Shown here: in pieces, positions 6,402 through 62,572 of the stretch
Layout of the letters: every line of letters begins with the position of its first letter
Numbering within the stretch: the stretch's first letter is position 1
Assembly: GCF_003324485.1 (NCBI RefSeq)
Contig: NZ_QODK01000004.1
Span: 62,001-126,000, forward strand
DNA: 64,000 nucleotides
Direction: 5' to 3'
Origin: Cohaesibacter intestini
Lineage (GTDB): Bacteria > Pseudomonadota > Alphaproteobacteria > Rhizobiales > Cohaesibacteraceae
Notes under the pieces: generated by a model
Databases searched by the model: none
Seen by the model: the letters and a program-made list of their open reading frames with translations, nothing else
Told to the model about the DNA's origin: nothing
Position numbers and translations under genes: made by a program

Positions 6402-6467
6402 TTGCCTGATTTCCTTGCGGGCTGATTTCGGGGCAAAGCCCACAGATGTGGGCCATGCCATACCGCA

Positions 6468-9128: not shown

Positions 9129-9420
9129 TGCTTGGTTTCTTTGGTGTATAAGTGGTTGTACTTATTCGAAAAGAACAAGATGACGGAAAGTGCAGGGCGT
9201 GAGGGAGGCATGCATCGGCAGGAAGGTGGATTTGCGCTAAAGCTTTAGTCTAAATTTTCTGGTCTTATGGACCCTTTTTTCTTCGGAATACAGCGAAAAT
9301 TTCAAGAAATCGCCCGAAAAGGTCAAGAAAAACAGACGCTATCCCTACTTTTGCCCGATAGACCGTCGCAAAGGCGGACGTTATTCATAGCGCCAAAGGT
9401 TCAATCGCTGGGAGGCTTTG

Positions 9421-11322
9421 ATGAGCGTGAAATATAGCGACGTGTATAAAGGGTGGAAGCAGGACCCGGAAGGGTTCTGGGCCAAGGCTGCGGAGAAGAT
9501 CGACTGGTTCAAGCCAGCGGAAAAGATCTTTGATCCCGACAGTGGTGTATATGGACGCTGGTTTGCCGGAGCGGAATGCAACACCTGCTACAATGCGGTG
9601 GATCGTCATGTGGAAGCCGGGCGCGGGGCGGACACTGCGATCATCTATGACAGCCCAATCACCGGCACCAAGGCAAGCTACAGCTTCGCCGAGGTCAAAG
9701 ATCAGGTGCAGGCGCTGGCCGCCGTGCTGAAGGATCGCGGCGTTGCCAAAGGCGACCGGGTCATCATCTATATGCCAATGATCCCGCAAGCCGCGTTTGC
9801 CATGCTGGCCTGCGCCCGCATCGGGGCTATTCATTCGGTGGTGTTTGGTGGCTTTGCGGCCAATGAGCTGGCAACCCGCCTGAATGACGCCAAGCCCACG
9901 GCAATCATTTCAGCCTCCTGTGGCATCGAGCCGAACCGGACCATCGCCTATAAGCCATTGCTTGACGAAGCGATCGAGTTGGCCGAACACAAACCCGACA
10001 GCTGCATTGTCTTCCAGCGTGAACAGTTGGTTTGTGATCTGATTGACGGGCGCGATGTGGATTATGCCAGTGCCGTCGCGGCGGCTTTGGAGGCGGGCAC
10101 AGAGGTTCCTTGCATGCCGGTGGCAGCGACCGACCCGCTTTACATCCTCTATACCTCCGGCACCACCGGTCAGCCAAAGGGCGTTGTGCGTGACAATGGC
10201 GGCCATATGGTGGCTCTGGCCTGGAGCATGGAATATCTCTATGGCGTCAAGCCGGGTGAGGTTTATTGGGCCGCTTCGGATGTGGGGTGGGTCGTGGGCC
10301 ATTCCTACATTGTCTATGGGCCGCTGGTTTATGGTGCGACCACTTTGCTGTTCGAAGGCAAGCCGGTTGGCACCCCTGATGCAGGCACCTTCTGGCGGGT
10401 GATTGAAGAGCATGATGTGGTGGCTCTCTTCACTGCGCCGACGGCTTTTCGGGCGATCAAGAAGGAAGATCCGAAGGGCGACTTCATCAAGAAATATGAT
10501 CTTTCCAAGCTCCGCACCTTGTTCCTTGCCGGGGAGCGTGCCGATCCCGATACGGTGCAATGGGCCGAGGATATGCTCAAAGTGCCTGTGATCGACCATT
10601 GGTGGCAGACCGAAACCGGTTGGGCGATTGCCGCCAATCCGGTTGGCATTGAGCTGCTGCCGGTGGTGCATGGATCTCCGACGGTTTCCATGCCGGGCTA
10701 TGATGTGCAGATTGTCGGGGCTGACGGCCATCCGGTTGCGGCCAACGAGATGGGCAACATCGTCATCAAGCTACCGATGCCACCGGGCAACCTGCCGGGG
10801 TTGTGGCAGAATGACACGCGGTTCCAGTCCAGCTACCTCGATGAATTTCCGGGCTACTATCAGACCGGGGATGCGGGCTATATGGACGACAATGGCTATC
10901 TCTATATCATGTCGCGCACCGATGACATTATCAACGTGGCCGGTCACCGTCTGTCGACCGGGGCGATGGAAGAAGTGCTGGCAGCCCATCCGGATGTCGC
11001 CGAATGCGCGGTGATTGGTATTGCCGACAAGCTGAAAGGCCAGTTGCCTGCCGGCTTCGTGGTGTTGAAGTCAGGTGTTGATCGCGCGCCGATGGACATC
11101 GAGAAGGAGCTGATCGGGCTGGTACGCGAGAAAATCGGCCCGGTTGCTGCCTTCAAGATCGCTGTCACCGTTGATCGTTTGCCTAAGACCCGTTCGGGCA
11201 AGATCCTGCGTGGCACCATGCGCGCCATTGCGGATCATGAAGAATATAAAATGCCTGCGACCATTGACGATCCCGCCATTCTGAACGAGATCGAGGCGGC
11301 TTTGCGTGAGCATGGCATTTAA
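9421..11322 (+). CDS. prpE: Propionyl-CoA synthetase
   Basis: A 633-residue acetyl/propionyl-CoA synthetase of the ANL superfamily: propionate + ATP + CoA to propionyl-CoA. The N-terminal WFKPAEKIFDPDSGVYGRWF and NTCYNAVDRHVE are typical of PrpE. The adenylation P-loop LYTSGTTGQPKGVVRDNGGH lies about residue 242, WWQTETGW about 400, and the C-terminal catalytic/acetylation lysine in TRSGKILRGTMR near 593. ATG at 9421 is preceded by GGGAGG; a TTG directly before it is not needed. Other short-chain acids such as acrylate are possible substrates. It is monocistronic, ending in a bidirectional terminator. Confidence 0.93.
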   Translation: MSVKYSDVYKGWKQDPEGFWAKAAEKIDWFKPAEKIFDPDSGVYGRWFAGAECNTCYNAVDRHVEAGRGADTAIIYDSPITGTKASYSFAEVKDQVQALAAVLKDRGVAKGDRVIIYMPMIPQAAFAMLACARIGAIHSVVFGGFAANELATRLNDAKPTAIISASCGIEPNRTIAYKPLLDEAIELAEHKPDSCIVFQREQLVCDLIDGRDVDYASAVAAALEAGTEVPCMPVAATDPLYILYTSGTTGQPKGVVRDNGGHMVALAWSMEYLYGVKPGEVYWAASDVGWVVGHSYIVYGPLVYGATTLLFEGKPVGTPDAGTFWRVIEEHDVVALFTAPTAFRAIKKEDPKGDFIKKYDLSKLRTLFLAGERADPDTVQWAEDMLKVPVIDHWWQTETGWAIAANPVGIELLPVVHGSPTVSMPGYDVQIVGADGHPVAANEMGNIVIKLPMPPGNLPGLWQNDTRFQSSYLDEFPGYYQTGDAGYMDDNGYLYIMSRTDDIINVAGHRLSTGAMEEVLAAHPDVAECAVIGIADKLKGQLPAGFVVLKSGVDRAPMDIEKELIGLVREKIGPVAAFKIAVTVDRLPKTRSGKILRGTMRAIADHEEYKMPATIDDPAILNEIEAALREHGI

Positions 11323-11344
11323 CCTCTGAGTGAGAGGTGAAACC

Positions 11345-11377
11345 AAAAAGGCCGGACTGCTGTCCGGCCTTTTTTAT
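11345..11377. terminator. Bidirectional Rho-independent terminator
   Basis: A long stem AAGGCCGGAC / GTCCGGCCTT with a short loop has T-runs on both strands. It serves the converging prpE and trcR genes. Confidence 0.9.
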
Positions 11378-11430
11378 ATCTTGATGATGGTTGCCCCGGC
11401 GTATGGCGCTTGCCTCGGGCAGGCCATATC

Positions 11431-12150
11431 CTAGTAATCGTCGTCTTCGTCGTCCTTCTTCTCGGACGGCTGGAAATTGGCAAAGACGGAAGCAGCATCC
11501 GGGATCTTGTCTTCTTCTTCGGGCTTGCTTTCTGTTGCCTTGAAATTGCCGAACGGATCGGCTGGATTGACCGTTTCCTCGGTGGACAACAGGGTCTGCT
11601 CTTCAAGGCTTTCCGGACGGGCTGGCGCATCAGCGGCGGACTTGCGCACTTCCATATCAAGGTCGAGCTGTTTGCAGATGCCCAAAGTGACCGGATCCAT
11701 CGGAGTCAGTTGGGCGCTGTTCCAGTGGGTACGGCTGCGGATCGCCTCAATGGTTGGCTTGGTGGTGCCAACGAGACGAACGATCTGGGCGTCCTTGAGC
11801 TCAGGATGGTTGCGCACGAGCCAGAGAATGGCGTTCGGACGGTCCTGACGCTTGGAGACCGGTGTATAGCGTGGGCCACGGCGCTTTGGTTCTGGCACGA
11901 CAACTTTTGGCGCGGCCAGTTTGATCCGGTAGGTCGGGTTGTTCTGGGCGCGCTCGATTTCTTCACGGGTCAGCTGGCCGGAAATTACCGGATCCATACC
12001 CTTGATGCCCTGTGCGGCTTCGCCATCGGCAATCGCTTTGACTTCCAGCGGGTGCAGCTTGCAGAAAGCAGCGATCTGATCGAAAGACAGGGCTGTGTTA
12101 TCGACCAGCCAAACTGCGGTTGCTTTCGGCATCAGTGGTGCATTCGACAT
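11431..12150 (-). CDS. trcR: DUF1013 protein, TrcR-type cell-cycle transcription regulator
   Basis: A 239-residue protein with the DUF1013 core: TAVWLVDNTALSFDQIAAFC, HPLEVKAIADGEAAQGI, then a second helix-turn-helix-like repeat around NAILWLVRNHPELKDAQIVR. The C-terminal 60 residues are acidic and probably disordered (EKKDDEDDDY). DUF1013 is confined to Alphaproteobacteria; its Caulobacter member TrcR has been reported to track with RNA polymerase and to affect cell-cycle promoters. The name is assigned by family, not by experiment in this organism. It is probably monocistronic, with a 368-bp upstream gap. Confidence 0.85.
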   Translation of the reverse strand: MSNAPLMPKATAVWLVDNTALSFDQIAAFCKLHPLEVKAIADGEAAQGIKGMDPVISGQLTREEIERAQNNPTYRIKLAAPKVVVPEPKRRGPRYTPVSKRQDRPNAILWLVRNHPELKDAQIVRLVGTTKPTIEAIRSRTHWNSAQLTPMDPVTLGICKQLDLDMEVRKSAADAPARPESLEEQTLLSTEETVNPADPFGNFKATESKPEEEDKIPDAASVFANFQPSEKKDDEDDDY

Positions 12151-12518
12151 GGTACATCCTCATTGTTGCTGGACCTGAATTCTCTTCAGATCAGCCTCTC
12201 AAGATTCTTTGAAATTGACAGGGAATGGCGCGACTATACTTGGATTGTCCTCCCGGCGCAAACAAGAAAAGGTCCAGAGCAGGCTTTTGCGCTGGTTTTT
12301 CTTCGGAAATCGTCCCGATTCTCTCCCTGTAAGCGCCATTATAGCACCGATATGCGGCGGCGTTGAAGCCGATTGTGTTGGGGGGCAGGCACGGCAGATG
12401 AACGGTGGATGGATCAGATATGACAACGGCCGGATGTGGGGCAGTCCCACTCCGGCCATTTTGTGTTATCTTTTTGAAATCGTGACCGAAAATCATGTGT
12501 TTCGGTGCAGGGGTCCAA
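12151..12518. other. Intergenic region with a strong hairpin
   Basis: This gap lies between trcR and the TadG-like gene, both on the minus strand. It holds the trcR promoter and, at 12428-12457, a near-perfect hairpin (GGCCGGAtGTGGG... / CCCAC TCCGGCC) just past the TadG-like stop. The hairpin is followed by ATTTTG on the plus strand and by no T-run on the minus strand, so it may be a weak terminator. No coding frame is convincing. Confidence 0.45.
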
Positions 12519-14057
12519 TCAGTCGGTCAGACGGATGACGTTCAGAGCCGCTGCGATCTCCTTGAAGACGTTGATCATATCGGAGGTGCTTTGTGGCGTG
12601 AAGGCATTTTCCGGCAAGGTGGCGCAGTCGCGCAGCATCTTGGTTGTGGACGAGCCGATATTGCCATAGGCAATGGTATAGACAATGACCTCTTTGTCTT
12701 TGGCTGCGGTGCAGGCTTCCAGCGTCCGTTTGTTCATCTCGCTGGTGGTGCTGCCCGAGCCGGAAATACGCCCGTCTGCTGCCCAGCCATAGGCCTGATA
12801 GCCACCATAGGTGTTGGCCCCGTCCGACATGACGATCATGAATTTGACATTCTCGTCATCATCATAACTTTTGCCCTGGCTGTAAGGCGCTTGCTGGGAC
12901 AGAAGGCGCAGACCCCAGATGGTGCCCAGATGGATGTTGGTGTTGCCGTTGGCGCTCAGGGAATTGATGTGAGAGCGCACGGTGTTCATGTTGGTTGTCA
13001 ACGGCAGAATGCGCTGGACATAGCAGCTATAGTTGGGGCCGCGGCCCTTGGAGAATTTTTGCTTGTAATACCAGCCATATTTTTTCTTCTGGGTCCATGT
13101 CATGCCGCTTGGATAGTCATTCTTTGGCAGATAATCGTTATAGCTGTTGTCATAACGGTTGTTCGGCTCGCGGGTGTCTGGATAGAAGAAGGGCTGGAAA
13201 AAGGTTTCTGGATTGCCGCTTGAGGCTGCGGTGTCCTTGATGTCCTGCGGATGCTTGCGCGCTTCAACACAGCCTTCCCATTCTTCCGCTTTGTAGGTGT
13301 ATGGGTCTTTGAGGATGCTGAACAGATCAAAGCGCTTCGATTTTGGCGGCAAGTTGTTGCGATGGATTGACGCCGAGGCGTCCTTGTCCAGCCAGCTGCG
13401 GCTGGTGTCGTTGGAATCCAGTCGCACGAGATGGTTGAACGGCACGATGCCAATGCTCAGATCTTCGCTATTCTGCTGATTTTCCTCAAGGATCGTGACC
13501 AATTCCTTGGCCGCATTCTTGAGTGCCCACAGGCGCGAACCACCCATCGAGCCCGAATTATCAAGCACGAGGGACACTTCGATGCTCTTGTCCGAGGCCA
13601 CAGCGCTGCTGTCAGCCTTGAAATCGGCTTTTTCCACGTCCGCAAGCAGCATGAAGGTGGTTTTGGTCTCGCCGCTTGCCTGAACGCGCAAGGCATTGGG
13701 GTTGCGCTTGATCTCGACGACATCAATGTTGGTCTTGATGCTGTTTGGTGTGTTGGCGACAACATAGGCGCCGATCATGCTGCGGATTTCGGAATCATTC
13801 AGGATCCCGACTTTCTTCACCGCCGCCAGCGTCGCCGCATCGAGGGCCGTCTGAACTTCGGATCGATCCAGAGCGATCCGGGAATAGTCAATCGCCACAC
13901 CGATCAGCAACAGGATCGGGATGAGCGTCAGGGCAAAAATGATGGCAATGGCACCGCTTTCGTCTTTGGCGAAAGAGCGGCCGGTTTGAAACGGTGCAGA
14001 GCGCTGAAGGCGTCTGGCTTTGTTTCTGGCTAAGCGCAGCAAAGATGAAGCAAGCAT
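12519..14057 (-). CDS. TadG-like pilus-associated protein with vWA domain
   Basis: About 512 residues. The N-terminus carries a basic stretch, DESGAIAIIFALTLIPILLL and one membrane helix (about residues 37-58), the TadE/TadG signature for Flp-type pilus minor proteins. A von Willebrand A domain follows, with the MIDAS motif VLDNSGSMGG near residue 168 and a second acidic/threonine site later (IVMSDGANTYGG). The long insert between them is rich in Tyr, Asn and Asp. In tad loci TadG is a tip or anchoring protein with TadE/TadF, but no other tad gene is near. I chose the ATG at 14057; a GTG at 14126 would add 23 residues. Confidence 0.75.
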   Translation of the reverse strand: MLASSLLRLARNKARRLQRSAPFQTGRSFAKDESGAIAIIFALTLIPILLLIGVAIDYSRIALDRSEVQTALDAATLAAVKKVGILNDSEIRSMIGAYVVANTPNSIKTNIDVVEIKRNPNALRVQASGETKTTFMLLADVEKADFKADSSAVASDKSIEVSLVLDNSGSMGGSRLWALKNAAKELVTILEENQQNSEDLSIGIVPFNHLVRLDSNDTSRSWLDKDASASIHRNNLPPKSKRFDLFSILKDPYTYKAEEWEGCVEARKHPQDIKDTAASSGNPETFFQPFFYPDTREPNNRYDNSYNDYLPKNDYPSGMTWTQKKKYGWYYKQKFSKGRGPNYSCYVQRILPLTTNMNTVRSHINSLSANGNTNIHLGTIWGLRLLSQQAPYSQGKSYDDDENVKFMIVMSDGANTYGGYQAYGWAADGRISGSGSTTSEMNKRTLEACTAAKDKEVIVYTIAYGNIGSSTTKMLRDCATLPENAFTPQSTSDMINVFKEIAAALNVIRLTD

Positions 14058-51462: not shown

Positions 51463-51628
51463 GAAAAGGGGCGGCGGCTCATTGGGGGGCGGGATGCTTC
51501 AACGACCTTGAAATCCATGAGGATTGTGCTGTTTGCCGTGCTATTCTTGCTTACCCAACGGCACATCCCTTGGGCCAAGGTCGCCACTTTCCGTTTGACG
51601 CTTCTGAGGATATCGGTTATGCCCGTCT

Positions 51629-51651
51629 GTGGGACACCTCTCCCCAACGAG
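51629..51651. repeat. attL core, 23-bp direct repeat
   Basis: It is identical to 61360-61382 and starts GTGGGACACC. It lies 12 bp from the integrase stop. Outside the core the two copies diverge at once on both sides. Confidence 0.92.
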
Positions 51652-51663
51652 GGTTATGGTCAG

Positions 51664-52683
51664 TCATGAAATTCCCCTTTCATTACAGTTGGTTAGTGCT
51701 TGTGTGGTGTGGCTGTGTGTCGATTTTGTGCCAAAAACGTCATCAACCACGGTGGGATCTTTGATCGCGTGAGCATAGGTTTCGAGCAGTACCCGAATGT
51801 CTTTCCAGCCTCCAAATTCGGCAACTGTCTTCACGTCTTTACCGGCCTGTAGCATCTTGGTTGCGAAGCCGTGGCGGCAAGCGTGAGGCGTCATATGCTC
51901 GATTCCAGCTCGCTTAATGGCGTTGTTCCAAGACTTGCGAACACAATCTGAAGCCTCATATTGAAAAACCGGTTCGTCTGGCTTGCGATTGCTTGGAATA
52001 TTGGCAAGCGCGGCGATTACGTTAGGTGTGAGGCGGGCAAGTCGTGTTTCACTGACTTTCGTCATATTGATTAAAGCGGTTCGCTTTTCGAAGTCGATAT
52101 GTCGCCATTCCAGCGCCACTGCTTCCCCGATCCTTGCCCCTGTCTCGAACATGAAACGGCACAAAGCGCCCAAATGGGGGGGAGAATTGTCTTCGAAAGA
52201 CGCAACCCATTCATCTGTGACGTGCTTTGCTTCCTTCTTGATAACCTTGAAGCGTTCCACTTTGATCGGGCTGCACCATCCCAATTTAGCGCAATGATTG
52301 ATTGCAGCTTGCGTTGGAATAATGACTTGCCTGTTTTTGGTGGCAGGCTTGCAGGTCGGATAAAGCCTGTTCGCTGACTGGCGAATAGCTTCTGGCGTCA
52401 CTGATGCTACTGGGGTGTTCTTCCAATAGTCAGCCAGTGGAGCAATAAACCTGGTTGCCTTTTCTGCCTCGATATATGCCAAGAATACATCAGCCATCGT
52501 CAGATCTGCCCCCGGTCCATCGAGACTACGTTTCCATGCCTTCGCTTCGACTTCCGCCGCGATCCGTTCCGCTCTCTTTTTGTCAGTCGTTTTTGTACTT
52601 CCGCGTAGGAGTCTACCGTTAACGGTGCCTCGGTAATGATAGATCCGGCCTCTTTTTGTGAGCTTGAGGGGCATTCGAGACAA
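51664..52683 (-). CDS. int: Tyrosine recombinase / phage-type integrase
   Basis: A 339-residue integrase. The N-terminal arm-binding part (KLTKRGRIYHYRGTVNGRLL, about residues 7-26) and a SAM-like core-binding domain (MADVFLAYIEAEKA) precede the catalytic domain. Visible catalytic residues are the arginine in TGARIGEAVALEW, the HxxR in HACRHGFATKML, the tryptophan of GGWKD and the tyrosine in LLETYAHA. It should excise and integrate the element at the 23-bp core next to its stop. Its first 184 bp overlap the excisionase-like gene in another frame. Confidence 0.92.
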   Translation of the reverse strand: MSRMPLKLTKRGRIYHYRGTVNGRLLRGSTKTTDKKRAERIAAEVEAKAWKRSLDGPGADLTMADVFLAYIEAEKATRFIAPLADYWKNTPVASVTPEAIRQSANRLYPTCKPATKNRQVIIPTQAAINHCAKLGWCSPIKVERFKVIKKEAKHVTDEWVASFEDNSPPHLGALCRFMFETGARIGEAVALEWRHIDFEKRTALINMTKVSETRLARLTPNVIAALANIPSNRKPDEPVFQYEASDCVRKSWNNAIKRAGIEHMTPHACRHGFATKMLQAGKDVKTVAEFGGWKDIRVLLETYAHAIKDPTVVDDVFGTKSTHSHTTQALTNCNERGIS

Positions 52684-52844
52684 GCCTCCATGAGTTGATG
52701 AACGTCACCTTCGAGCAGAAATACTTTCTTGCCAATCTTGCGGCTCAAGCCCAATGCTTTAGCTTTCTCACGAACAGTGCGTTCATTGATGCCAAAATGA
52801 GAGGCTATTTGGTCCGGTGTGATATAGGCAGGAAGGGCAGTCAT
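52500..52844 (-). CDS. Excisionase/AlpA-like helix-turn-helix protein
   Basis: A 114-residue basic protein. The first 55 residues form a helix-turn-helix of the excisionase/MerR-like winged type (ITPDQIASHFGINERTVREK, then LGLSRKIGKKVFLLEGDVHQ). The C-terminal half is lysine/arginine-rich (KRLTKRERNGSRRKSKRRHG). It overlaps the integrase by 184 bp and its ATG overlaps the upstream regulator's stop by four bases, so the three are one transcript. Xis/AlpA-type proteins bend att DNA or switch satellites on; which applies here is unknown. Confidence 0.75.
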   Translation of the reverse strand: MTALPAYITPDQIASHFGINERTVREKAKALGLSRKIGKKVFLLEGDVHQLMEACLECPSSSQKEAGSIITEAPLTVDSYAEVQKRLTKRERNGSRRKSKRRHGNVVSMDRGQI

Positions 52845-53551
52845 TTGTTGCCCTCCTTTTGCTCACGAGCAGCGATGTACTCTTCGATCTCAAGTCGCCG
52901 TTTCGCAATCTCAATCGGAGTGCCTTCATTGTTCCATGGGTGTGCTGGATCGAGAGGGTAACCATTTACATCACAACCAGCGTATCTGTCGTTATTTGAT
53001 GAATCCAATCCTCTATCCATGCGATCTCTTGACCAGTGGTCCGGGTAGTGATTGATCAACATGAAGGAAATCCCACCCATAGACAAAACACTCCAAAGAG
53101 TTGTTTGTGCCAGCAATGAGGGGCAGATTTCGTCTTTCCGAATTAAATCGGTTTTAATGTGTCCAACCCAGTCAGATGTAAAAAACAGGAACCAATCGTC
53201 TGAATCTATTTCAAATACGTCATCGTGTGTTTTCACAATTTCCATAAACACATCTGCCGCTTTTTCCGCTACTGTGGCCGCGAATTCATACGTTGCACCT
53301 TGCGCAGTGATATCGCGCATAACTCGCATCATTAGACAAGATTTCAGGCTGTACAAACGAGGTGACGTCTTGCCGGTTCCCTTCTTGACGAACGGGATCA
53401 AACCTCGGTCAGAAATGTTATTCAGAAAGCGCTTTATTTCGGCTTTTGAAGGGTCGCCAATCGCAGACAGATTGCAAGCGTCGAGTGGTTTCATCCAGCA
53501 ACGTTCAATTTCATCAGCAGTGAGTTTTGGCGTGTATCTTGAAATCTGCAT
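52841..53551 (-). CDS. Hypothetical protein with MerR-like N-terminal DNA-binding region
   Basis: A 236-residue protein I do not recognise. Residues about 38-85 (IKRFLNNISDRGLIPFVKKG, then SPRLYSLKSCLMMRVMRDIT) resemble the winged helix of MerR-type regulators. The rest (about 95-236) is acidic and aromatic, with no clear family; it has WFLFFTSDWVGHI and a C-terminal helix EIAKRRLEIEEYIAA. It heads the integration module, separate from the head operon. A regulator of the element is a reasonable inference. Base composition is AT-richer than the host genes. Confidence 0.6.
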   Translation of the reverse strand: MQISRYTPKLTADEIERCWMKPLDACNLSAIGDPSKAEIKRFLNNISDRGLIPFVKKGTGKTSPRLYSLKSCLMMRVMRDITAQGATYEFAATVAEKAADVFMEIVKTHDDVFEIDSDDWFLFFTSDWVGHIKTDLIRKDEICPSLLAQTTLWSVLSMGGISFMLINHYPDHWSRDRMDRGLDSSNNDRYAGCDVNGYPLDPAHPWNNEGTPIEIAKRRLEIEEYIAAREQKEGNK

Positions 53552-53740
53552 CTCTGATCCTTTGATGCATTCAATTTACTATGAGCGCGTAAGAACATCA
53601 AGATTAACTTTTTTGTAGTAAGATGAGCGCCGCGCGGGGCAATGAAAGGTAGGGGTTAACTCCGCCGCGCCCTGTCAGTGTTATTACGGACACTTGCTGA
53701 CTTGTCCGGGGTGCCCTTGAATAGGACGGACAGGGCACCA
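53552..53740. other. Intergenic region between head operon and integration module
   Basis: This holds the promoter of the regulator-xis-int module and the end of the head operon. A GGTGCCC / GGGCACC inverted repeat (about 53705-53737) follows the portal stop, without a T-run. Confidence 0.4.
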
Positions 53741-54787
53741 CTAATCCCAATCGACCAGCTTTAAAGCCTCATTCGGATCAATGCCGCTTTCTTTGGCTTG
53801 TCCAAGTGCTTGAATTATCGTGGTTAACGCTCGCGCTCGCCCACCTGCATCGAACGCTTGAAGTGGCCGCATTACGTCCAACGTGATTTCAGTTCCCATC
53901 TTTTCGCTTGTCTCTTGAGCAATGGTTTTGCCGATTGGTGCAAGGGTCCACTGCGCTAAATGGCGTTGAGCTTCTCGGATCATTGGCCCTGTTGTGGCTG
54001 TGGAAAACATGCCGGGCAACACGCCGAACACGCTCGAAATTGAATTTCGCGCCGCATTCAACGTTTCAATCGACATCGATTTTTGCAAATCAGGCGATAA
54101 GTCGCTGGGATTCCAATCTGAGCTAGGCGTTGGCCCGCCAGCACTGGTTACTGTCACGCTTTCTCTAAGGAGAATGCGCCCACGCTTACCACGAAAACCA
54201 CGGCCCAAAGTTTCCATATCCGTTTCTGGCTGTTCTGGAAAAGGCAACACTTTGCTGCCTAAAGAGGAGCAGTCAAATACTTCCGCCAAAGCACTTTCTA
54301 CAGAGTTCAACATGCCTGCCGTAAGCTGTGCCCGACGTAAAGGCGATTGCCCATGGTACGGACTGGCCACATCACACCCAATCCGGAAATGCAGCACCTC
54401 GCCCGCAAGTGCGGTTTCAGTGCGACCGCCGCCCGCTTCGGAAATTGAAAGCCGATATGCCGTTGGCTTGCCGTTCTTTGTGCGTAGATCCCAATCCGAG
54501 CAGGGAATAAGTCCGTCCCCATCGATCAGGAACACCGCTTCACCACGCAAGGCCAGAGATCGGCCAATGAGTGCAAGCGATGCAGGATCAAGCAGATTGG
54601 TCCCTTCAACATCTGCAATGGTCAAGCCATGTTCCCACATGGAAACGCAGCTTTGAGCCGTGCCAGTTAATTCGGCAATGCCACGCGAGCCGGAAATATA
54701 GCTTTCCCGTGCTGCCATGATTTCAGCCGTAAACCCGCTTGCGCTGGATCTGGTTTCTTCTTTTGGTTTTCGATTAAAAGGCCACAT
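53741..54787 (-). CDS. Phage portal protein, HK97 family
   Basis: A 348-residue portal subunit forming the dodecameric ring through which DNA enters the head. Family features are a clip/wing start with VSMWEHGLTIADVEG, RGEAVFLIDGDGLIP, the stretch VLHFRIGCDVASPYHGQSPL (about 130-150), and a C-terminal part PGMFSTATTGPMIREAQRHL. Shorter than the about 420 residues of HK97 portal. ATG 54787 follows GGAGGGCTTGAGC. It is the last gene of the head operon, an unusual place since portal normally comes right after the terminase. Confidence 0.88.
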   Translation of the reverse strand: MWPFNRKPKEETRSSASGFTAEIMAARESYISGSRGIAELTGTAQSCVSMWEHGLTIADVEGTNLLDPASLALIGRSLALRGEAVFLIDGDGLIPCSDWDLRTKNGKPTAYRLSISEAGGGRTETALAGEVLHFRIGCDVASPYHGQSPLRRAQLTAGMLNSVESALAEVFDCSSLGSKVLPFPEQPETDMETLGRGFRGKRGRILLRESVTVTSAGGPTPSSDWNPSDLSPDLQKSMSIETLNAARNSISSVFGVLPGMFSTATTGPMIREAQRHLAQWTLAPIGKTIAQETSEKMGTEITLDVMRPLQAFDAGGRARALTTIIQALGQAKESGIDPNEALKLVDWD

Positions 54788-54789
54788 GC

Positions 54790-55326
54790 TCAAGCCCTCC
54801 GATAAGGGCGCAACAGATCAGCCGCACCTGATAATTGAAGCGCTTTGCCAGTCCATCCGGTGAAAACTTCCGTTTGATCATCGGAGCGATAAGCCGCATC
54901 ATTCTTGTGGTTTTCAGCAATGCCCTTACTGAATTCATGCAAACGCCGGAAAGCCTCTTGCACTGCTTCAGGAACATCACCGCTACCGACTGAAGCACTA
55001 AAGCGATAGGGGCCATCACCGGGCAATTCAAAGCCCAAAGGCGCATCGGCAATGCTGACGGTTTCCCATGCGGAGCCGTTCCAGACTTCGACCTGGCTAA
55101 TTGTTGCCGGTGTTAGTGGCGGCGTCCATTCGCCCGGACCTTCGACAATCCAAACGACATTGCGAGCCGTCCAACGGTGCGCGATATAGCTTTCAATACG
55201 CTGCCAGATCAGAGCGTTTTCAATGCTCGCATCATCAGGATAGCTTTCATTGTTCCAATGCGGATATGGTGCCGTATCGGGATAACTGGCCGGGATGGAT
55301 TCAGTTTGTTTAATCGTGGTTGCCAT
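54790..55326 (-). CDS. Head-tail connector-like protein (phiE125 gp8/HK97 gp6-like)
   Basis: A 178-residue protein. A middle segment WTARNVVWIVEGPGEWTPP with SQVEVWNGSAWETVSI and an ending LSGAADLLRPYRRA match the style of gp6/gp8 head-tail connectors, which extend the portal channel and give the tail its docking site. The N-terminal part is shorter in the family and here helical (SIENALIWQRIESYIAHRWT). The ATG at 55326 follows GGAGG. It lies between protease and portal. A connector without tail genes fits a satellite that takes tails from a helper. Confidence 0.65.
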   Translation of the reverse strand: MATTIKQTESIPASYPDTAPYPHWNNESYPDDASIENALIWQRIESYIAHRWTARNVVWIVEGPGEWTPPLTPATISQVEVWNGSAWETVSIADAPLGFELPGDGPYRFSASVGSGDVPEAVQEAFRRLHEFSKGIAENHKNDAAYRSDDQTEVFTGWTGKALQLSGAADLLRPYRRA

Positions 55327-55328
55327 CG

Positions 55329-55919
55329 TTAGAGCCTCCAACGCTTGAGGGAATGCACCAAGCCGCTATCTGGCGGATATGCGTTTGCACGCCATGCCCG
55401 CGCCTCGATTTGTGCGCTTGGATAGGCAGGGCGGGTTACTGCGCTAATCTCGAACAATTCAGCATTCTTGACAGTGCGAAGGATCGCCCCGCCTTCAGAA
55501 CGTACGCTTTCCGCATGATCTGTTGGCGCAACCCTAAAGCCCGGTGAAATCCCTTTGATTAGATTGGCTTCCAGTGCTGCCATGAAATCCGAGACATAGG
55601 ACACCGCCCGCATTTCAGGGGAAATCCGAGCTTCAAACGTCAATGCTTCGTCGCTGTCTTCGAGAGTGAGACTGCCTGCCGATCTGCTTGCCAGTGGTTT
55701 TTCAAAGTCATGCCCTGCGAGAAAGTAGATATCTTCCCCGCTGTTGATACGTGCTGCAAAGGCGCGTGGTGCAATGACTTCCTTTCGTGCTTGCCCAGAG
55801 CGGCCACCGTCCCAAAGGACGGTAGGCGCACCATAGGGGAAGCGGCCTCGAAGGACGGTTATTAAACCGCCTTCGGAGCGGCGAAGCTCTAGCCCGCCGT
55901 TATGACCGCCCCAAAGCAT
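55329..55919 (-). CDS. Prohead maturation protease, HK97 family
   Basis: A 196-residue serine protease of the U35/HK97 gp4 type. Candidate catalytic residues are the histidine in YFLAGHDFEKPLASR (about 70) and the serine in IKGISPGFRV (about 123), followed by LFEISAVTRPAYPSAQIEAR, typical of the family. It trims the capsid protein's N-terminal scaffold during maturation. The start codon shares one base with the capsid stop (TAATG), so the two are coupled. Confidence 0.88.
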   Translation of the reverse strand: MLWGGHNGGLELRRSEGGLITVLRGRFPYGAPTVLWDGGRSGQARKEVIAPRAFAARINSGEDIYFLAGHDFEKPLASRSAGSLTLEDSDEALTFEARISPEMRAVSYVSDFMAALEANLIKGISPGFRVAPTDHAESVRSEGGAILRTVKNAELFEISAVTRPAYPSAQIEARAWRANAYPPDSGLVHSLKRWRL

Positions 55920-57190
55920 TAGGAAGCCTCCAACTCAAGGCCAGTGATCAGTTCAAGCTGAGCAGGACGCGCAACTGTCACATCAGCAGTGGTCAACGCT
56001 GTGAGCCTTAGCCCGCCTGATTGGGCGTCGGTATATGGATCGCGAATAACATCGACACCCCCCCAGACACCCACGAAAATCGGAGCGACACCGCCCGCCG
56101 AGGTAGTAAGTAGGGCTTGCGTTTCGCTTGGAGTGCCAGACGGATCAGCAAGAGCATTCGTACTCATGGCGATATTCTGAGCCGGGATATTCTTCAGAAG
56201 GCGATCCCATTCCGAAACCGCAGTTCCAGAAATCAATGTGTCATCGAGCAGGGACCACAATTCAGGCCGAATGAGTGCCTTAACAGCGTTGGGGCTTCCA
56301 GCTGCATTTGCCGTCATAAAGCGGACAACAGCGGCGCGGAATGCAGACCAGTCAGCCAGAGCCGCCGCATCGGTTGAAGTAATGCCGTAGGTGCTCTGAC
56401 CAGTGATTACGCCGAGCGGTTGACCATCGGCACCAGTGCCAAGGAAAATTGCTTGATCGAGTGCCGCACCGATTGCAGAGTTCATGTCACGGCGCACCGC
56501 CATTTCAAGAGCGCTGCCACTTTGTTTGAGCGTCTTGCGAGTGATCCGCATCTGAATACCAAGGTTTTGTTCTGGTTTCAGCGCTTTGTCAGTCGTCGCA
56601 AAGGCAGTTGGGCCAGCGACATTTCCCGTTTCAGAGCTTGCCCAGCCAGCAGACACTGAGCTAGTGACAACCGGCCATTCAGTTTCGCCAGAGTCGATAT
56701 TGATCATCTGAACGCCCATGCGGGATGCAACAGAGTCAGGGAAAAGGCGATCAATGATAGGGCGGGTCCGAATAGGATCGGGAGTACCGCTTGCGATTGT
56801 CTCGCCTGCACGGGTTTCCAGAGCTGCCCAAGGTACGGGAAAACCCCTATACCCACCCTGAGAGCGCATCTCTTGCACAATTTCATTCGTTGGACCGGAA
56901 AGCGCCGCGCCTTCATCCAGTGCAAGGGCGACTTGCCGCATTTCGAAACGATCGATCAGATCATTCCATTCTTTGTCGCCGCGCGTTTCAAGCTCTTCGC
57001 CAGCTTCACGCCGTTCGGTATCTTCCGCAATGAGCGCCGCACGATAGCGGGTTTCATTCTGGCGGTATTCCGCATCCATGCTTTCCATAGAGCGGGTTTC
57101 GTCTTCAGTCGGGTTTTGCTTGCCGACCAGTTCACTAAGTGCCTGCCGGATTTCGGACTGACGGCGATTGATTTTTACAGATTCCAACAT
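55919..57190 (-). CDS. Major capsid protein, HK97 family
   Basis: A 423-residue capsid protein. The first about 100 residues are a charged helical delta-domain acting as internal scaffold (RRQSEIRQALSELVGKQNPT onward), removed by the protease. The mature HK97 fold follows, with EMRSQGGYRGFPVPW, a core IRTRPIIDRLFPDSVASRMG, EQNLGIQMRITRKTLKQSG and a C-terminal part ending TVARPAQLELITGLELEA. ATG 57190 with AGAGGCTAAAA upstream. Gene order puts capsid before the protease, the reverse of HK97. Confidence 0.93.
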   Translation of the reverse strand: MLESVKINRRQSEIRQALSELVGKQNPTEDETRSMESMDAEYRQNETRYRAALIAEDTERREAGEELETRGDKEWNDLIDRFEMRQVALALDEGAALSGPTNEIVQEMRSQGGYRGFPVPWAALETRAGETIASGTPDPIRTRPIIDRLFPDSVASRMGVQMINIDSGETEWPVVTSSVSAGWASSETGNVAGPTAFATTDKALKPEQNLGIQMRITRKTLKQSGSALEMAVRRDMNSAIGAALDQAIFLGTGADGQPLGVITGQSTYGITSTDAAALADWSAFRAAVVRFMTANAAGSPNAVKALIRPELWSLLDDTLISGTAVSEWDRLLKNIPAQNIAMSTNALADPSGTPSETQALLTTSAGGVAPIFVGVWGGVDVIRDPYTDAQSGGLRLTALTTADVTVARPAQLELITGLELEAS

Positions 57191-57215
57191 TTTTAGCCTC
57201 TTGTGTTGGGGTGGA

Positions 57216-57524
57216 TTAAGACCGCATTTTTGCAATCAGTTCTTTCCAAGCCTCGCGGGCTGGATCTTCACGGCCTAAGCCGATTTCTAGGCGGGTTTTC
57301 CTGCTATGGCAGGGTCCGCAAAGTGTTTGTAAATTGGACTCTTCAAAGCTGAGTTCTGGGTTCGTTCTCACGGGCTTTATGTGATCGACTTCCAATCGTC
57401 CCTTTGCGCCGCATTTCACGCACTTCCAGCCATCACGCCGCAAGACTTCCAATCGAACCGTTTTCCAGCGTTGGGACCGGGTGACTTTCTTCGAGTGTCT
57501 GGCATATTCCTTCTTCAAGCCCAT
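57216..57524 (-). CDS. HNH endonuclease
   Basis: A 102-residue HNH nuclease. The zinc pairs are CVKCG and CGPCH; the HNH core is LEVDHIKPVRTNPELSFEES with NLQTLC, and RKTR follows. In HK97-type phages an HNH protein beside the terminase helps it cut cos ends. Its start overlaps the end of the large terminase by 10 bp, and the capsid gene begins 26 bp after its stop. That placement argues for a packaging role rather than a homing nuclease. Confidence 0.88.
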   Translation of the reverse strand: MGLKKEYARHSKKVTRSQRWKTVRLEVLRRDGWKCVKCGAKGRLEVDHIKPVRTNPELSFEESNLQTLCGPCHSRKTRLEIGLGREDPAREAWKELIAKMRS

Positions 57525-59029
57525 GCCACGCGCCCCCCTTTGGAGACTGGACGCCCCATAATTCGCGCCCCTTCTGCGACTGCCAGAACCGTTGCGCTTG
57601 CCGCATCAATGCGCCCCTTTGATCTGGCTTTGGTCAGCTTCATATTGTTTGCCGGGTCTCTAAGCGTGACCGCATCAGAGAATGCAGACCGCAAGAGCAG
57701 GGAAGGGGACGTTTTCACCTTGCCGTCAAACGTGGCACGCCGGAAACGTTCGCAATCTTCTCCCCCAGAGCGGAAACCTTGACCGCGCCAAATCAGGGGC
57801 GCACGAATGCCCGCCCGTGAAATGGCCTCGCCAAGTTCGGCTTGCTTGTATCGGTCCATGATGATTGCCGAGACGGTTTCACCTTCAACATGCTTCATCA
57901 CTTGAGTAAGCCAAGGGGCAACTGGAACCGTTTGCTCTCCAAGCGTTGAGAGTTCGCCCCGCTCGCTCATATCGACATACCGAGAACCAACGCCGTCATT
58001 TTGCCCCCTATCAAGCAGGGAAGGCATAGAGGGGAAGGTTCCAAGCGCTTCAAGCCTTCCAGTCTCAGGCCAATAAAAAGCCGCTGCCGTCATCGATGCC
58101 GAGCCGCCAAGATCGATCCCAATCACGACTTGCCCCTTGCGGGCTGGCAATTCAGAGACTTCGCAAGCCTGCCATTCATCGACCGTCAAAAGTAGATCGC
58201 GGGTTTCAGCACTGACGCGCTCATTTCGGTTGTAAAGCCGGAAGGTGGTAAGAGCAGATCCGCCGCGCTTGATTGCTCTTCTCGCTTGAGCTTGAAGCCA
58301 GTCAAGATTTGAGCCAATGCCATATTGAGCGCCGGGGTTTGCTTCTTTCAGGCTTTCCAGATCATCAGCAGGCAAGCCCGGTGCTGGCCTATGCTCTTGC
58401 ACATAGACGCCCTCTTGTGGTTCATCGATCCACTTTGAAAATGGGTGGCTGTCATCGCTTGCAGAAGTCGAAATAATCAGCGCCCGCCCGCCGCGTTTGC
58501 CGATGCCGGACAAAAGAGCGTGCTCGAGCGCATCCCCTTTATCTGCTTGCCAATGGCCTCGTTCATCCATCAGAACCAAAGTCGGAGCGGTGCCCAATGC
58601 CGTTTTGCCATCCGCTGCAATCACGCGCAGCAAATGCCCGCCGCCATCGCCATCAAACTCTATTTCAAGCCGTGGCGATTTCCTGAAGGTCATTTGTTCT
58701 TGGATCTCTTCCGGCAAAGACCTTGCAAAGCCTTCAACGAAATTGAATGCAATCCGGCCCTGATCTCTTGTCCGGGCTGCAATAAGGATTTCCCGCCGTG
58801 GCTGATTATCCCATTCGCCAAGCAATGCGCCCAAAGCAATGCCAGCAGACAAAGCCGTCTTTGCATTGCCGCGACCAATAGAAAGAACGGCAATCGAGAT
58901 GCCAGCTTTCAGAGCGCCTTTGACAAACTTTTTCTGAAACGGAGCCAGCTTGATCGGATCGCCAGCCTTTGGCCCTTCTGGAATCTGAAGGCTTTCAAGG
59001 AACCGGATTGCTTTCGTGGATGCCATCAT
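57515..59029 (-). CDS. terL: Phage terminase large subunit
   Basis: A 504-residue packaging motor. The N-terminal ATPase carries a Walker A-like SIGRGNAKTALSAG (about residue 52), Walker B LVLMDERGHW (about 150) and LIISTSASDD (motif III, about 185). The C-terminal RNase H-like nuclease starts at VVIGIDLGGSASMTAAAF (about 295) and has later acidic residues (IIMDRYKQAELG; KGRIDAASATVLA). ATG 59029 follows GGAGG. No small terminase gene is found upstream: only 148 bp separate it from the RepA-like gene. Confidence 0.92.
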   Translation of the reverse strand: MMASTKAIRFLESLQIPEGPKAGDPIKLAPFQKKFVKGALKAGISIAVLSIGRGNAKTALSAGIALGALLGEWDNQPRREILIAARTRDQGRIAFNFVEGFARSLPEEIQEQMTFRKSPRLEIEFDGDGGGHLLRVIAADGKTALGTAPTLVLMDERGHWQADKGDALEHALLSGIGKRGGRALIISTSASDDSHPFSKWIDEPQEGVYVQEHRPAPGLPADDLESLKEANPGAQYGIGSNLDWLQAQARRAIKRGGSALTTFRLYNRNERVSAETRDLLLTVDEWQACEVSELPARKGQVVIGIDLGGSASMTAAAFYWPETGRLEALGTFPSMPSLLDRGQNDGVGSRYVDMSERGELSTLGEQTVPVAPWLTQVMKHVEGETVSAIIMDRYKQAELGEAISRAGIRAPLIWRGQGFRSGGEDCERFRRATFDGKVKTSPSLLLRSAFSDAVTLRDPANNMKLTKARSKGRIDAASATVLAVAEGARIMGRPVSKGGRVAWA

Positions 59030-59177
59030 TCGACCGCCTCCACAGTTTTAGGGTGGCTTGCGAGAGAGAAAAGATAAGTCCCACCCCCGATGCCCATATC
59101 TGTCAGATTGCCGACCATTGGGACCAGATATGCAGACCCCCGGTAAGAACGGTAATAAGGTAAGAATGGACTGTAGG

Positions 59178-60329
59178 TCATGGCCTGCCCTCCTTGCCTT
59201 GGTTCTCCTGATCCTTACCGACCTTACCCGCATCCATTGATAAGGTAAGAATGTCGCTTTCTTCTAAATCATTGTTATTAATACCTTTATTCTCTGACCT
59301 TACCTTATTACCCACATTACCGGGGGTTAGGTCAGTGCGAGATGGGTGGTAATAATGCCCTTTCTTAGCCTTCATTACCTCGCCAGACTTAGACATAAGA
59401 GACAGCATCTTTGTTACCGGGTTCTTGTTGCGACCGGTAATAATGGCAATGTCGGTTGGGGTAAGCCATTCGTCAGCGGTAAGAAGTTCATCAAGGATTG
59501 CTGCCCTCTCCGATGAACGGCGCACCTCGGTTGCCTCGCCATGCATGGACCAAATACCGCCTGCAAAGGTCAGGGCTGTTTCCTTCTCTTCCACGTCACG
59601 ACCACGCACATAGAGCGTTATCCCGTTTCCATCACGGTCTAGCAGTAGGGTCGCGTCCGCTACCGCTGACAAGCCATTTGATCCGGTCAGGGCTTCAAGA
59701 GGATCGTCCGCACCGCCTTTACGGGTATGGTGCAGGGCAAGCACTGCAACCCCGTTCTGAGTTGCCCAGCGCTGCAATTCTGCAAAGGCTACATAGTCAT
59801 TCTCATAGGCATTGCGGTTGCTGGTGCCCGCGGGCTTAATGCGCTGCAAAACGTCGATCACAACAAGCCGGGGTTCACTGACGGACAGTCGCCAGCTTTC
59901 AAGGCATTCAATGAAACCCTGATCAAGCTGAACGGCTTCCTCTACCCAATCCAAACGGGAAAGATCAGGCACTGACTTTTCATCCGGGAAAAGGGTCTTG
60001 ATCCGCCGTTGAACGCGCCTTGCTCCATTTTCCATGTCGATGTAAAGCACATCACCTTGTTCGCAAGGGATCTGGCCCATAGCGTGCTGACCTGTGGCAA
60101 CGGACACGGCCCAATCTATCGCAAGCCACGTTTTGCCAAGTTTTTGACGCCCCGCCAGTACGTTGAAACCTTCAGGAAGGTATTCAGGCACGATCCACCG
60201 AATAGGCGCGTATTCCGTCGCCATAATGTCGTTGGTGTTCGTGCGCTTGAAGCTCTTACGCTTTGGCAATGTGGTAACGTTGGATTGGCTTTTCATGTCG
60301 GAAAGCACTTTGAAATTGTTGTCAGTCAT
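59178..60329 (-). CDS. RepA-like AAA ATPase (DnaB/RecA-type helicase fold)
   Basis: A 383-residue ATPase of the RepA/AAA_25 group. Walker A is LAGRQKLGKTWLAIDWA (about residue 60), Walker B EPRLVVIDVLQRI (about 157), and a sensor segment LALHHTRKGGADDP (about 200) follows. A winged-helix-like C-terminal part comes after (TPTDIAIITGRNKNPVTKML). Such hexamers act as replicative helicases in small plasmids and satellites. Its ATG overlaps the PrimPol-like stop by four bases. Together these two form the replication module. Confidence 0.85.
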   Translation of the reverse strand: MTDNNFKVLSDMKSQSNVTTLPKRKSFKRTNTNDIMATEYAPIRWIVPEYLPEGFNVLAGRQKLGKTWLAIDWAVSVATGQHAMGQIPCEQGDVLYIDMENGARRVQRRIKTLFPDEKSVPDLSRLDWVEEAVQLDQGFIECLESWRLSVSEPRLVVIDVLQRIKPAGTSNRNAYENDYVAFAELQRWATQNGVAVLALHHTRKGGADDPLEALTGSNGLSAVADATLLLDRDGNGITLYVRGRDVEEKETALTFAGGIWSMHGEATEVRRSSERAAILDELLTADEWLTPTDIAIITGRNKNPVTKMLSLMSKSGEVMKAKKGHYYHPSRTDLTPGNVGNKVRSENKGINNNDLEESDILTLSMDAGKVGKDQENQGKEGRP

Positions 60330-60928
60330 ACCAGTTGCCCCACTTCAAGCTCTTGCCCTTCTTCAAGGAAATAATCTGGACCACCAAGCGCCGGACGGCT
60401 TGGAGGCAACAGCACAAAGTCACCCGTGCCGAAAACATGGACGCCGGGGGCAATCGATCCCCTGATTTGATCGAAGTTTTGTTCGGGGCGGAAAAGGAAC
60501 ATTAGTTCATCAAGAGGGGTGACAATCTCTACGACCTTCTCAGGAATTGCCCAACCGGACCTTTTCAGGCTTTCAAGGGTGTTGCGGTCTTTGACCTTCA
60601 AACACCAGATGCCACTCCATAGGCCAACGCTCATTCCAATCATTGCGAAAGGAAACTTGCCCCACCATTCACGCACCTTGCTTTCAGGCGTGGTGACGCC
60701 GTTCCAGTCAACCAATGGTGTACCGTCGATATTGATCGGATAAATAGGATAGCCGCGTTTCGCATATGCCAAGGCCCAAAAAATGAGTTCATCACGCAAA
60801 GCCTTTTCTTGCGTCATGGGGCTAAATTGGCTAGGATCCGGGTGTATTATCTCGCTTCTACTTTTCAGTAGTTCGCAAGTCCCCGGTGTTGCCGCACCGG
60901 GGATTTCTTTTTGTAAAGCTGCGTTCAC
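60326..60928 (-). CDS. PrimPol-like (bifunctional primase/polymerase N-terminal) protein, catalytic residues lost
   Basis: A 200-residue protein aligning with the N-terminal bifunctional primase-polymerase domain: ALAYAKRGYPIYPINIDGTP, SKVREWWGKFPFAMIGMSVG, then GDFVLLPPSRPALGG. Two key sites are changed. The metal-binding DxD (usually ..LDIDG) reads CLKVKDRN, and the GGxHxYF histidine motif reads LDELMFLF. It is therefore probably not a working polymerase and may be a loader or initiator for the ATPase next to it. GTG 60928 with GAGG seven bases upstream overlaps the preceding stop. Confidence 0.7.
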   Translation of the reverse strand: MNAALQKEIPGAATPGTCELLKSRSEIIHPDPSQFSPMTQEKALRDELIFWALAYAKRGYPIYPINIDGTPLVDWNGVTTPESKVREWWGKFPFAMIGMSVGLWSGIWCLKVKDRNTLESLKRSGWAIPEKVVEIVTPLDELMFLFRPEQNFDQIRGSIAPGVHVFGTGDFVLLPPSRPALGGPDYFLEEGQELEVGQLV

Positions 60929-61290
60929 TGCGACACCTCGTCGAGCGTGTCAACAATTGAACCGCATAGATCGCGAGCCGCATCCTGAATTGAATCCATG
61001 GCATGGATAGCGCCTTCATGACCGACTGGATCTTTCAAATGCACTTCATTTGCAATTTTGAAATGACCGATGAGCAAGCCCTGAAGGCGAATAGCTTCAG
61101 TGTAAATCTGGTAAATGCGTTCGCGCTGTACCTGTGGCGTGATCCCTTTGGCCTCAGCAAGCGTTGGTTTCAGGTCATATTCGGTGAGCGCATCGTGCAA
61201 AGCCTTCGGATCATCAAGAACAGACTGTGAACCGCTTGTGCCAGTTTTGTGACACACTTCCCCGCATGTTCCGGGTGCGTTCTGTTCCAT
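60925..61290 (-). CDS. Hypothetical protein, first gene of the element
   Basis: At least 121 residues from ATG 61290. I do not recognise it. The second half is helical (ALTEYDLKPTLAEAKGITPQ, then QRERIYQIYTEAIRLQGLLI and a C-terminal GSIVDTLDEVSQ); no motif or membrane segment is seen. The frame stays open through the attachment core to 61410, where it would share its ATG region with serC, but that part is host sequence, so a start inside the element is more likely. It leads the replication module, overlapping the PrimPol-like gene by four bases. Confidence 0.5.
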   Translation of the reverse strand: MEQNAPGTCGEVCHKTGTSGSQSVLDDPKALHDALTEYDLKPTLAEAKGITPQVQRERIYQIYTEAIRLQGLLIGHFKIANEVHLKDPVGHEGAIHAMDSIQDAARDLCGSIVDTLDEVSQ

Positions 61291-61359
61291 GCTACATTTA
61301 TCTGTAGCTGAATTCCCTTTAATGCTTGCGGTTTCCTCAGTGTTGCTGTAGTCCGGTGA

Positions 61360-61382
61360 GTGGGACACCTCTCCCCAACGAG
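61360..61382. repeat. attR core, 23-bp direct repeat
   Basis: Identical to 51629-51651. The core contains most of a hairpin CCTCTC-CCCAAC-GAGAGG (61368-61385) whose last three bases lie in the host flank, 23 bp before the serC ATG. Confidence 0.92.
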
Positions 61383-61408
61383 AGGCAACTATCTGTGAGG
61401 GTAGATAC
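61368..61408 (+). promoter_or_regulatory. Remaining serC leader: hairpin and ribosome site
   Basis: A perfect 6-bp stem with a CCCAAC loop, then a stretch with GTGAGGGTAG as ribosome site before ATG 61409. In Alphaproteobacteria a conserved serC leader RNA motif is known upstream of this gene; this hairpin is probably part of it. Everything 5' of the core is element DNA here, so the natural leader is broken. Confidence 0.5.
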
Positions 61409-62572
61409 ATGACAGATATGACGAAGCCGGCTCAACAGCCGAACAACCCCCTTTTCTCTTCTGGCCCATGCTCGAAGCGTCCGGGTTGGTCCCTCGATGG
61501 ACTGACTGACGCGCCGCTGGGTCGTTCCCACCGCGCAAAAATTGGCAAGGCAAAGCTGCAGGAAGCCATCGATCTGACCCGTGAGGTGCTCAATGTGCCT
61601 GCGGATTACCGGATCGGCATCGTGCCTGCGTCTGACACGGGTGCCGTCGAAATGGCTCTGTGGTCGCTGCTTGGTGCGCGTGGCGCTGATATTCTCGTAT
61701 GGGAAAGCTTTGGCGCTGGCTGGGCAACCGACGTTACCAAACAGCTCAAGCTGGATGATGTGCGCGTGCTCAAGTCTGGCTATGGCGAGCTGCCGGATCT
61801 GTCGCAGGTTGACTTCTCCCGCGATGTCGTCTTCACCTGGAATGGCACCACCTCCGGTGTGCGTGTGCCCAATGGTGACTGGATCGACGCGGACCGCGAA
61901 GGCCTGACCATTTGTGATGCCACCTCCGCTGCCTTTGCGCAGGATCTGGCATGGGACAAGCTCGATGTGGTCACTTATAGCTGGCAGAAAGTGCTTGGCG
62001 GAGAAGCGGCTCACGGCATGCTGATCCTCAGCCCCCGCGCCGTTGAGCGTCTGGAAAGCTACACGCCCGCATGGCCTTTGCCAAAAATCTTCCGCCTGAC
62101 CAAAGGCGGCAAGCTGATCGAAGGTATCTTCAAGGGCGAGACCATCAACACCCCTTCGATGCTCTGCGTTGAGGATTATCTCGATGCCCTGAAATGGGGC
62201 AAGGATCTGGGTGGTCTGTCGGGCCTGATCGCACGGGCCGACAAGAATCTTGCCGTGCTGGAAGCCTGGGTTGCCAAGACCCCTTGGGTTGACTTCCTTG
62301 CCAAGGACGAGGCCATTCGCTCCAACACGTCCGTTTGCCTGACGATCGTTGATGAGGCGGTTCAGGCGCTCGAAGCGGATGCTCAGGCGAAATTTGCCAA
62401 GGCACTTGTTGCGCGTCTCGATGCTGAAGGCGCTGCCTTCGATATCGGAGCCTATCGCGATGCCCCATCCGGGCTGCGCATCTGGGCTGGTGCCACCATC
62501 GAGGCAAGTGATCTGGATATGCTGACCGCTTGGCTCGATTGGGCCTTTGCTGAAGAAAAGGCGGCTCTGTAA
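61409..62572 (+). CDS. serC: Phosphoserine aminotransferase
   Basis: A 387-residue class V aminotransferase turning 3-phosphohydroxypyruvate and glutamate into phosphoserine. It is the alphaproteobacterial form: [16 protein letters not shown] (about 12-27), a PLP pocket with WESFGAGW and [20 protein letters not shown], and the Schiff-base lysine in [14 protein letters not shown] (about 197). It lies 105 bp upstream of serA, as usual. The integrated element ends 26 bp before its start codon, so it must be transcribed from element DNA or from an attR-proximal promoter. Confidence 0.95.

Follow-up and report, generated by a model that had tools for sequence, protein, structure and literature searches.

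The 64,000-nt stretch of the Cohaesibacter intestini genome analysed here (contig NZ_QODK01000004.1, positions 62,001–126,000; hereafter the window) carries a 9.75-kb integrated island at window positions 51629–61382. We read it as a phage satellite with its own small-head and packaging set, which would obtain tail and lysis from a helper phage and work like a capsid-forming phage-inducible chromosomal island (cf-PICI); we give this reading a probability of about 0.85. The island has its own major capsid protein (MCP), prohead protease, portal, head–tail connector, large terminase (TerL) and HNH endonuclease, a replication module of its own (PrimPol and AAA_25 ATPase) and, as in cf-PICIs, an integrase with a specific attachment site. 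In agreement with an initial annotation made from the sequence alone, profile library scans matched no tail or lysis family among its open reading frames (ORFs). The same plan recurs in 35 islands delimited by direct repeats.

Island borders and attachment site

The island is flanked by a perfect 23-bp direct repeat with copies at 51629–51651 (attL) and 61360–61382 (attR), at a spacing of 9731 bp. It is the longest exact repeat at such a spacing within the 13.5-kb region, and 200 first-order Markov simulations of matched composition gave a longest repeat of at most 15 bp, compared with 23 bp in the real sequence. Every listed island ORF is open with no broken frame, so that intact ORFs inside exact repeats, as initially annotated, are indeed present.

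The island is integrated in the serC leader RNA (RF00517). A complete leader (61358–61409, plus strand; 68.4 bits, E 1e-13), within which attR is located, adjoins a host serC-type gene outside the island (61409–62572, plus strand; name inferred from the leader). At the other end, attL is the core of a split leader copy, detected as a partial RF00517 match at 51627–51674 (27.2 bits, under the gathering score). The complete leader stays with serC and its native upstream side is displaced 9.7 kb by the island. The serC query region is present in 16 of the 18 genomes of the genus. In one congener (G015), the joined flanks align unbroken over 2440 bp at 88.8%, which marks a clean empty site; intergenic divergence in the remaining congeners is too high for alignment across the site. 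Among 20 genomes of the family, only the window's own was positive for the window TerL. The serC leader RNA is also the target of an island in Wenxinia marina (L026) and of two others (L129, L141). Four islands from two families have thus inserted in a cis-regulatory leader RNA, an intact copy remaining with the gene.

A family of islands sharing plan and size

TerL homologues were found at 20 loci in viral contigs and 9 in named genomes. Counting the window genome, they also occurred in 9 of the 397 genomes searched from the order and in 2 of the 385 from the class. Of 398 genomes from the phylum, 10 had an MCP homologue at E <= 1e-10, and in five, the window genome among them, it was full-length. 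Within one alphaproteobacterial family (f74), 35 of 295 sampled genomes, each from another genus, gave a portal match at E <= 1e-30, with near full-length matches at 29 places in 28 genomes. Members outside the alphaproteobacteria are found in Salinisphaera, a gammaproteobacterium, and in a metagenome-assembled genome labelled Oceanospirillaceae.

Direct repeats delimited islands at 14 of 23 loci, at 3 of 8 and, as new islands, at 18 of 28, giving a total of 35. Five of the 20 viral-contig loci were mapped (L004, L005, L009, L019, L022) and one was delimited. Two loci were dropped before counting: L027, on the same contig as L047, and L128, which repeats L026 and is one of 19 delimited among the 28. 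Other uncounted loci are at contig ends, are fragments or have no clear repeat. Repeats of 14–15 bp (L046, L049, L050, L127, L131, L132) were accepted for coinciding with a tRNA end. The islands occupy tRNA genes of nine isotypes or the serC leader. In all but L133 the repeats fall on a called tRNA gene or on this leader; the 30-bp repeat of L133 corresponds to the tRNA-Cys end seen at other loci, no tRNA-Cys being called there. The check proposed with the initial annotation thus found head-set islands without a recognised tail gene at several loci in related genomes.

Integrase, TerL, HNH, MCP, protease and portal are present in all 35 islands, with the head genes in one order and on one strand. 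Island length is 9663–12115 bp (mean 10631, sd 605, n=35), and 3.1–5.8 kb per island is left outside the head block and integrase. In the first 17 islands, G+C (0.52–0.69) tracks that of the flanks (0.50–0.71). In 27 of the 35, stop-free alignments covering at least 80% of a query were obtained for each of integrase, TerL, MCP, protease and portal. Of the other eight, one is decayed (L053), one has an integrase alignment of 67% (L126) and six carry a single stop near an alignment end; these stops, within 27 residues of the query start or close to where one alignment ends, are probably outside the real gene. The HNH frame is in two pieces in L054 and aligns over 44% in L134. Finite dN/dS values were obtained for 14 of 16 gene-pair comparisons, 11 at 0.03–0.18, one TerL pair at 0.28 and two adaptor pairs at 0.24 and 0.41, all of them rough since many dS exceed 1.

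In a sister lineage in family f74 (L152, L154), TerL, MCP and portal share only about 30% identity with those of the window type; the gene order is the same and an integrase is present. The repeats lie at a tRNA-Asn-like sequence and at a tRNA-Thr, with spacings of 10,374 and 10,385 bp. Since the plan is kept across a divergence to about 30% identity, it is not a chance deletion. A further weak locus (L153) retains portal and protease but just the end of an MCP, without a TerL or integrase match.

Several other loci were observed around this family. In L053 the terL, mcp and portal frames are broken and the integrase is kept, showing that islands decay in place. Two uncounted head-block loci adjoin alpha-tmRNA (L125, L138), the former with a 13-bp repeat at its end and measuring 10,884 bp, and the 12.1-kb island L133 contains a tRNA-Leu gene. 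Weak MCP matches in four genomes (G250, G724, G845, G921) come from regions of a different kind, with open frames of 472–705 aa, and were not counted; in the class of G845, a portal search without a positive control gave 0 of 78. One of them, L074 of G250, is a 10.1-kb island at a tRNA-Arg (L074 positions 3580–13692) whose MCP is distant. It was excluded for an 810-aa ORF resembling a tape-measure protein by eye, and may be a remnant or a different type of satellite.

Scans for tail, lysis and cargo genes

Accessory ORFs of the relatives were scanned against profile libraries in three sets: 109 ORFs from 13 islands, a further scan of 104 from 16 islands (integrases and primases removed), and ten post-portal plus ten other ORFs. 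The families recovered were integrases, AlpA, helix–turn–helix (HTH) proteins, primases, replication proteins, HNH, HicA/HicB and neck genes, the last comprising head closure, head–tail adaptor and 'tail completion or Neck1'. AlpA (PF05930), a type of regulator that is a feature of Gram-negative PICIs, was matched by 3 of the 109 ORFs. Tail-tube, tape-measure, baseplate and lysis families were all absent from the 25 commonest of 88 and of 46 PHROG families listed (16 of the 35 islands). PADLOC gave three weak single matches among the 109 ORFs and no clear defence cargo. Likewise, no tail family was present in the flanks among 25 listed of 59 (95 of 116 flanking ORFs scanned).

Tail genes were also located directly in 29 genomes holding 30 of the 35 islands. 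The tape-measure family PF10145 gave 15 matches, spread over 9 genomes, and the tail-tube family PF06199 gave 28, spread over 27 genomes; none of the 15 or of the 28 was within an island. From the space available, a tail module would hardly fit the 3.1–5.8 kb left over.

The head–tail adaptor and its possible exchange with the portal

The 183-aa product that the initial annotation called a connector (54790–55341, minus strand) gave no convincing family in profile library scans. Its predicted structure nevertheless upholds the call, identifying it as a head–tail adaptor of the gp6/RcGTA-neck type: the best match, from VIA-align over Foldseek's top 1000 chains, is the neck of the Rhodobacter capsulatus gene transfer agent (GTA).

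Eight of the 35 islands lack the window-type adaptor and seven of these carry another adaptor family instead; one of three adaptor queries (L139) was in a wrong frame and its matches were discarded. Adaptor type tracks the portal tree, not the capsid tree, which suggests that portal–adaptor cassettes have been exchanged between islands. Two genomes each carry two different head-block islands (G1183 with L127 and L140, G1297 with L126 and L152), so islands are able to meet and recombine. Neither the portal, at E <= 1e-3, nor the adaptor had a match in 50,697 phage records.

Genes of the window island

All island genes lie on the minus strand and are described here in their order. The first encodes a 161-aa protein without family (60925–61410; 34% over 70 aa in L026); its listed ORF begins outside attR, with the true start probably lying inside. 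Replication genes follow, a PrimPol-type primase (60326–60928; PF09250, Prim-Pol, 6e-11) and a RepA-like AAA_25 ATPase/helicase (59178–60329; AAA_25 3e-33; 62% identical in L031). The HK97-type TerL (57515–59029; phrog_9 2e-64; PDB 6z6d, E 3.5e-37) has nuclease (3e-12) and ATPase (2e-8) domain matches, and is adjoined by the HNH endonuclease (57216–57524; HNH 1.9e-10; phrog_144 1.3e-24). Next come the HK97-fold MCP (55919–57235; PF05065, Phage_capsid, 1.6e-13; profile match to 8gta, 6e-8), the S78 prohead protease (55329–55919; Peptidase_S78 8e-22), the adaptor and the portal (53741–54793; PF04860, Phage_portal, 1e-12; phrog_12 6.8e-9).

The run ends with a 236-aa protein (52841–53551; best E 0.012, no convincing family), an HTH_17 protein resembling xis/AlpA (52500–52844; HTH_17 0.00022; phrog_1840 excisionase 0.00035) and the tyrosine integrase (51664–52683; PF00589, Phage_integrase, 7e-27). 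The latter is 52% identical to the integrase of L026, likewise in a serC leader, and the HTH_17 protein has a 44% identical counterpart there. The two ORFs overlap by about 180 bp (52500–52683), with a similar overlap in L026. Integrase, PrimPol, AAA_25 ATPase, TerL, HNH, capsid, protease and portal of the initial gene list are thus borne out by family match. Two other items are weaker: the HTH_17 match is under the Pfam cut-off (21.8 versus 27 bits), and the 236-aa 'regulator' is a guess from position. A search for head-closure Hc1 in the window gave no convincing match, the best (E 0.029) being outside the island.

Comparison with known systems

Published descriptions of cf-PICIs such as EcCIEDL933, in the parts available to us, list their own MCP, protease, portal, connector, TerL, HNH, integrase and primase, as in the island, and no tail genes, the tails being those of the helper (PMC10690885, PMC10803314, PMC11389934). 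Compared with these descriptions, and not with sequences, the islands differ in size (about 10.6 kb against a cf-PICI mean of 14 kb), in their alphaproteobacterial hosts, in the serC leader as target and in that no small terminase was recognised; homology searches brought up no enteric cf-PICI reference. Satellites building their own heads are, in the portions of the literature available, reported mainly from enterics and Firmicutes, and alphaproteobacteria are not among the cf-PICI hosts named in the same portions of PMC10690885, PMC10803314 and PMC11389934. Our literature search, judged mostly from titles and listings, found no report of alphaproteobacterial members.

PMC12846349 reports that the capsid of an E. 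coli cf-PICI groups structurally with the Rhodobacter GTA capsid. The MulchRoom/MiniFlayer satellites of Streptomyces phages, as described in PMC10690885, resemble the island in having their own capsid and packaging genes; by that description they are set apart by virulent helpers and other hosts, and are said to have no significant homology with PICIs.

With HK97-type siphophages the islands share an HK97-fold MCP and an S78 protease, and the TerL of HK633 and PAJU2 is about 27–28% identical over 94–96% of the query. These are, however, complete tailed phages of about 39–47 kb, and phage records contain no match to the island portal or adaptor. HK97-type siphophages have the portal at the start of the head block, whereas it is last in that of the island. 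GTAs carry tails and package host DNA; the island differs from the Rhodobacter capsulatus GTA, whose neck the adaptor resembles, in having an integrase and genes for replication.

Weighing the interpretations

Several observations weigh against the satellite reading. No small terminase was recognised among the scanned window ORFs, a class of protein that diverges fast; there are weak matches of small-terminase type for the HTH protein (phrog_57 0.0078, phrog_1206 0.0096), and the HNH protein weakly matches phrog_4581, an HNH-bearing terminase family. A head-closure gene was found in 5 of the 35 islands, the window island being without one. A lone tail-like match could escape the PHROG lists (25 of 88 and 25 of 46 families), two neck families are named 'tail completion or Neck1', and the library scans covered accessory ORFs of 16 islands, not those of the other 19. 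Decayed copies or fragments exist (L053, L150, L151) and the dN/dS values are rough. Finally, the candidate tail donors of the window genome described below have no link to the island beyond the adaptor fold.

The initial annotation placed the island in the cf-PICI class. This holds as far as gene content and a presumed mode of operation go; no small terminase was recognised. Could the island nonetheless be a direct member of an already described cf-PICI lineage, sampled in a new class? The gene list fits the available part of the published description (MCP, protease, portal, connector, TerL, HNH; PMC10690885) and AlpA occurs in 3 of the 109 accessory ORFs of relatives. Apart from the small terminase, this proposal, which we consider doubtful, meets the difficulty that the likeness is drawn from descriptions, not sequences, and that in published capsid trees there are three separate radiations (PMC11389934).

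A GTA of the host, instead of a phage, could be the tail donor. GTAs are common in these orders. The window genome has a GTA-like cluster on contig C3 (about 627.8–642.5 kb) with portal, tail-assembly, adaptor and tail-tube matches, which we name from its gene order. The genome also contains, at the end of contig C4, a prophage-like region with a repressor-like gene, terminase, portal, head decoration and tail-fibre match, and a tape-measure match at C2:1114988. The PF06199 tail-tube gene is strongly conserved in 27 of 29 island-bearing genomes, mostly one each (E 1e-36 to 1e-50), the copy of the window genome lying inside the GTA-like cluster. This co-occurrence was counted in island-bearing genomes alone and may mean nothing; two genomes (G674, G937) have the island and no PF06199 match, and one island is in Salinisphaera, a gammaproteobacterium. 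Structural identity is 12%, and profile comparison of the window adaptor with the GTA adaptor of the same genome was not significant (probability 1.6%). We consider a GTA as donor very improbable. Nor does the island itself look like a GTA, with an integrase present and no tail gene recognised in its cluster.

That no tail gene was recognised in any island and no helper is known might also point to a head-only element, spreading as a tailless virion or domesticated as a DNA-protecting capsid. This appears very improbable: a portal with a neck adaptor (or another adaptor, in seven of the eight islands without it) makes most sense with a docked tail, and an integrase and many integration sites speak against domestication.

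The least probable alternative, a deletion remnant of a tailed HK97-type prophage, can call upon ordinary siphophage head families, one decayed delimited relative (L053) and the fragments L150 and L151, but it predicts varied sizes and broken frames, whereas we found one gene set, order and size at many sites, head genes that look constrained by dN/dS, a portal in none of the 50,697 phage records, and no recognised tail module beside the head module in the window or in the delimited relatives. All 35 delimited homologues measure 9.7–12.1 kb and none was found in a tailed prophage of 30–50 kb. Because the 35 islands and the sister lineage share plan and size, the island is not a deletion remnant, in line with the initial annotation, which had noted no broken frame.

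Proposed mode of action and significance

As a satellite, the island would excise and replicate upon entry or induction of a helper phage. It would assemble a small HK97-fold head matching its genome of about 10–11 kb and package itself through its own TerL and HNH, probably in a cos-type manner. The island portal–adaptor would then take the tail of the helper, which would also supply lysis.

Taken together, the genomic comparisons point to a large alphaproteobacterial family of putative capsid-forming satellites, whose likeness to cf-PICIs consists of gene content and a presumed way of working. A more speculative proposal, which we regard as rather unlikely, is that these form an ancient, separately evolved lineage of head-making satellites, common among alphaproteobacteria, in which the portal–adaptor cassette is swapped between islands against the capsid and terminase genes, fitting one kind of head to different tail donors, with GTA tails possibly among them. 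As satellites, the islands would represent an unrecognised gene-transfer route in an alphaproteobacterial family. Their near-constant size of 10.6 kb across very diverged islands predicts a single capsid size. With the alternative adaptors, how satellite heads are matched to foreign tails becomes directly testable.

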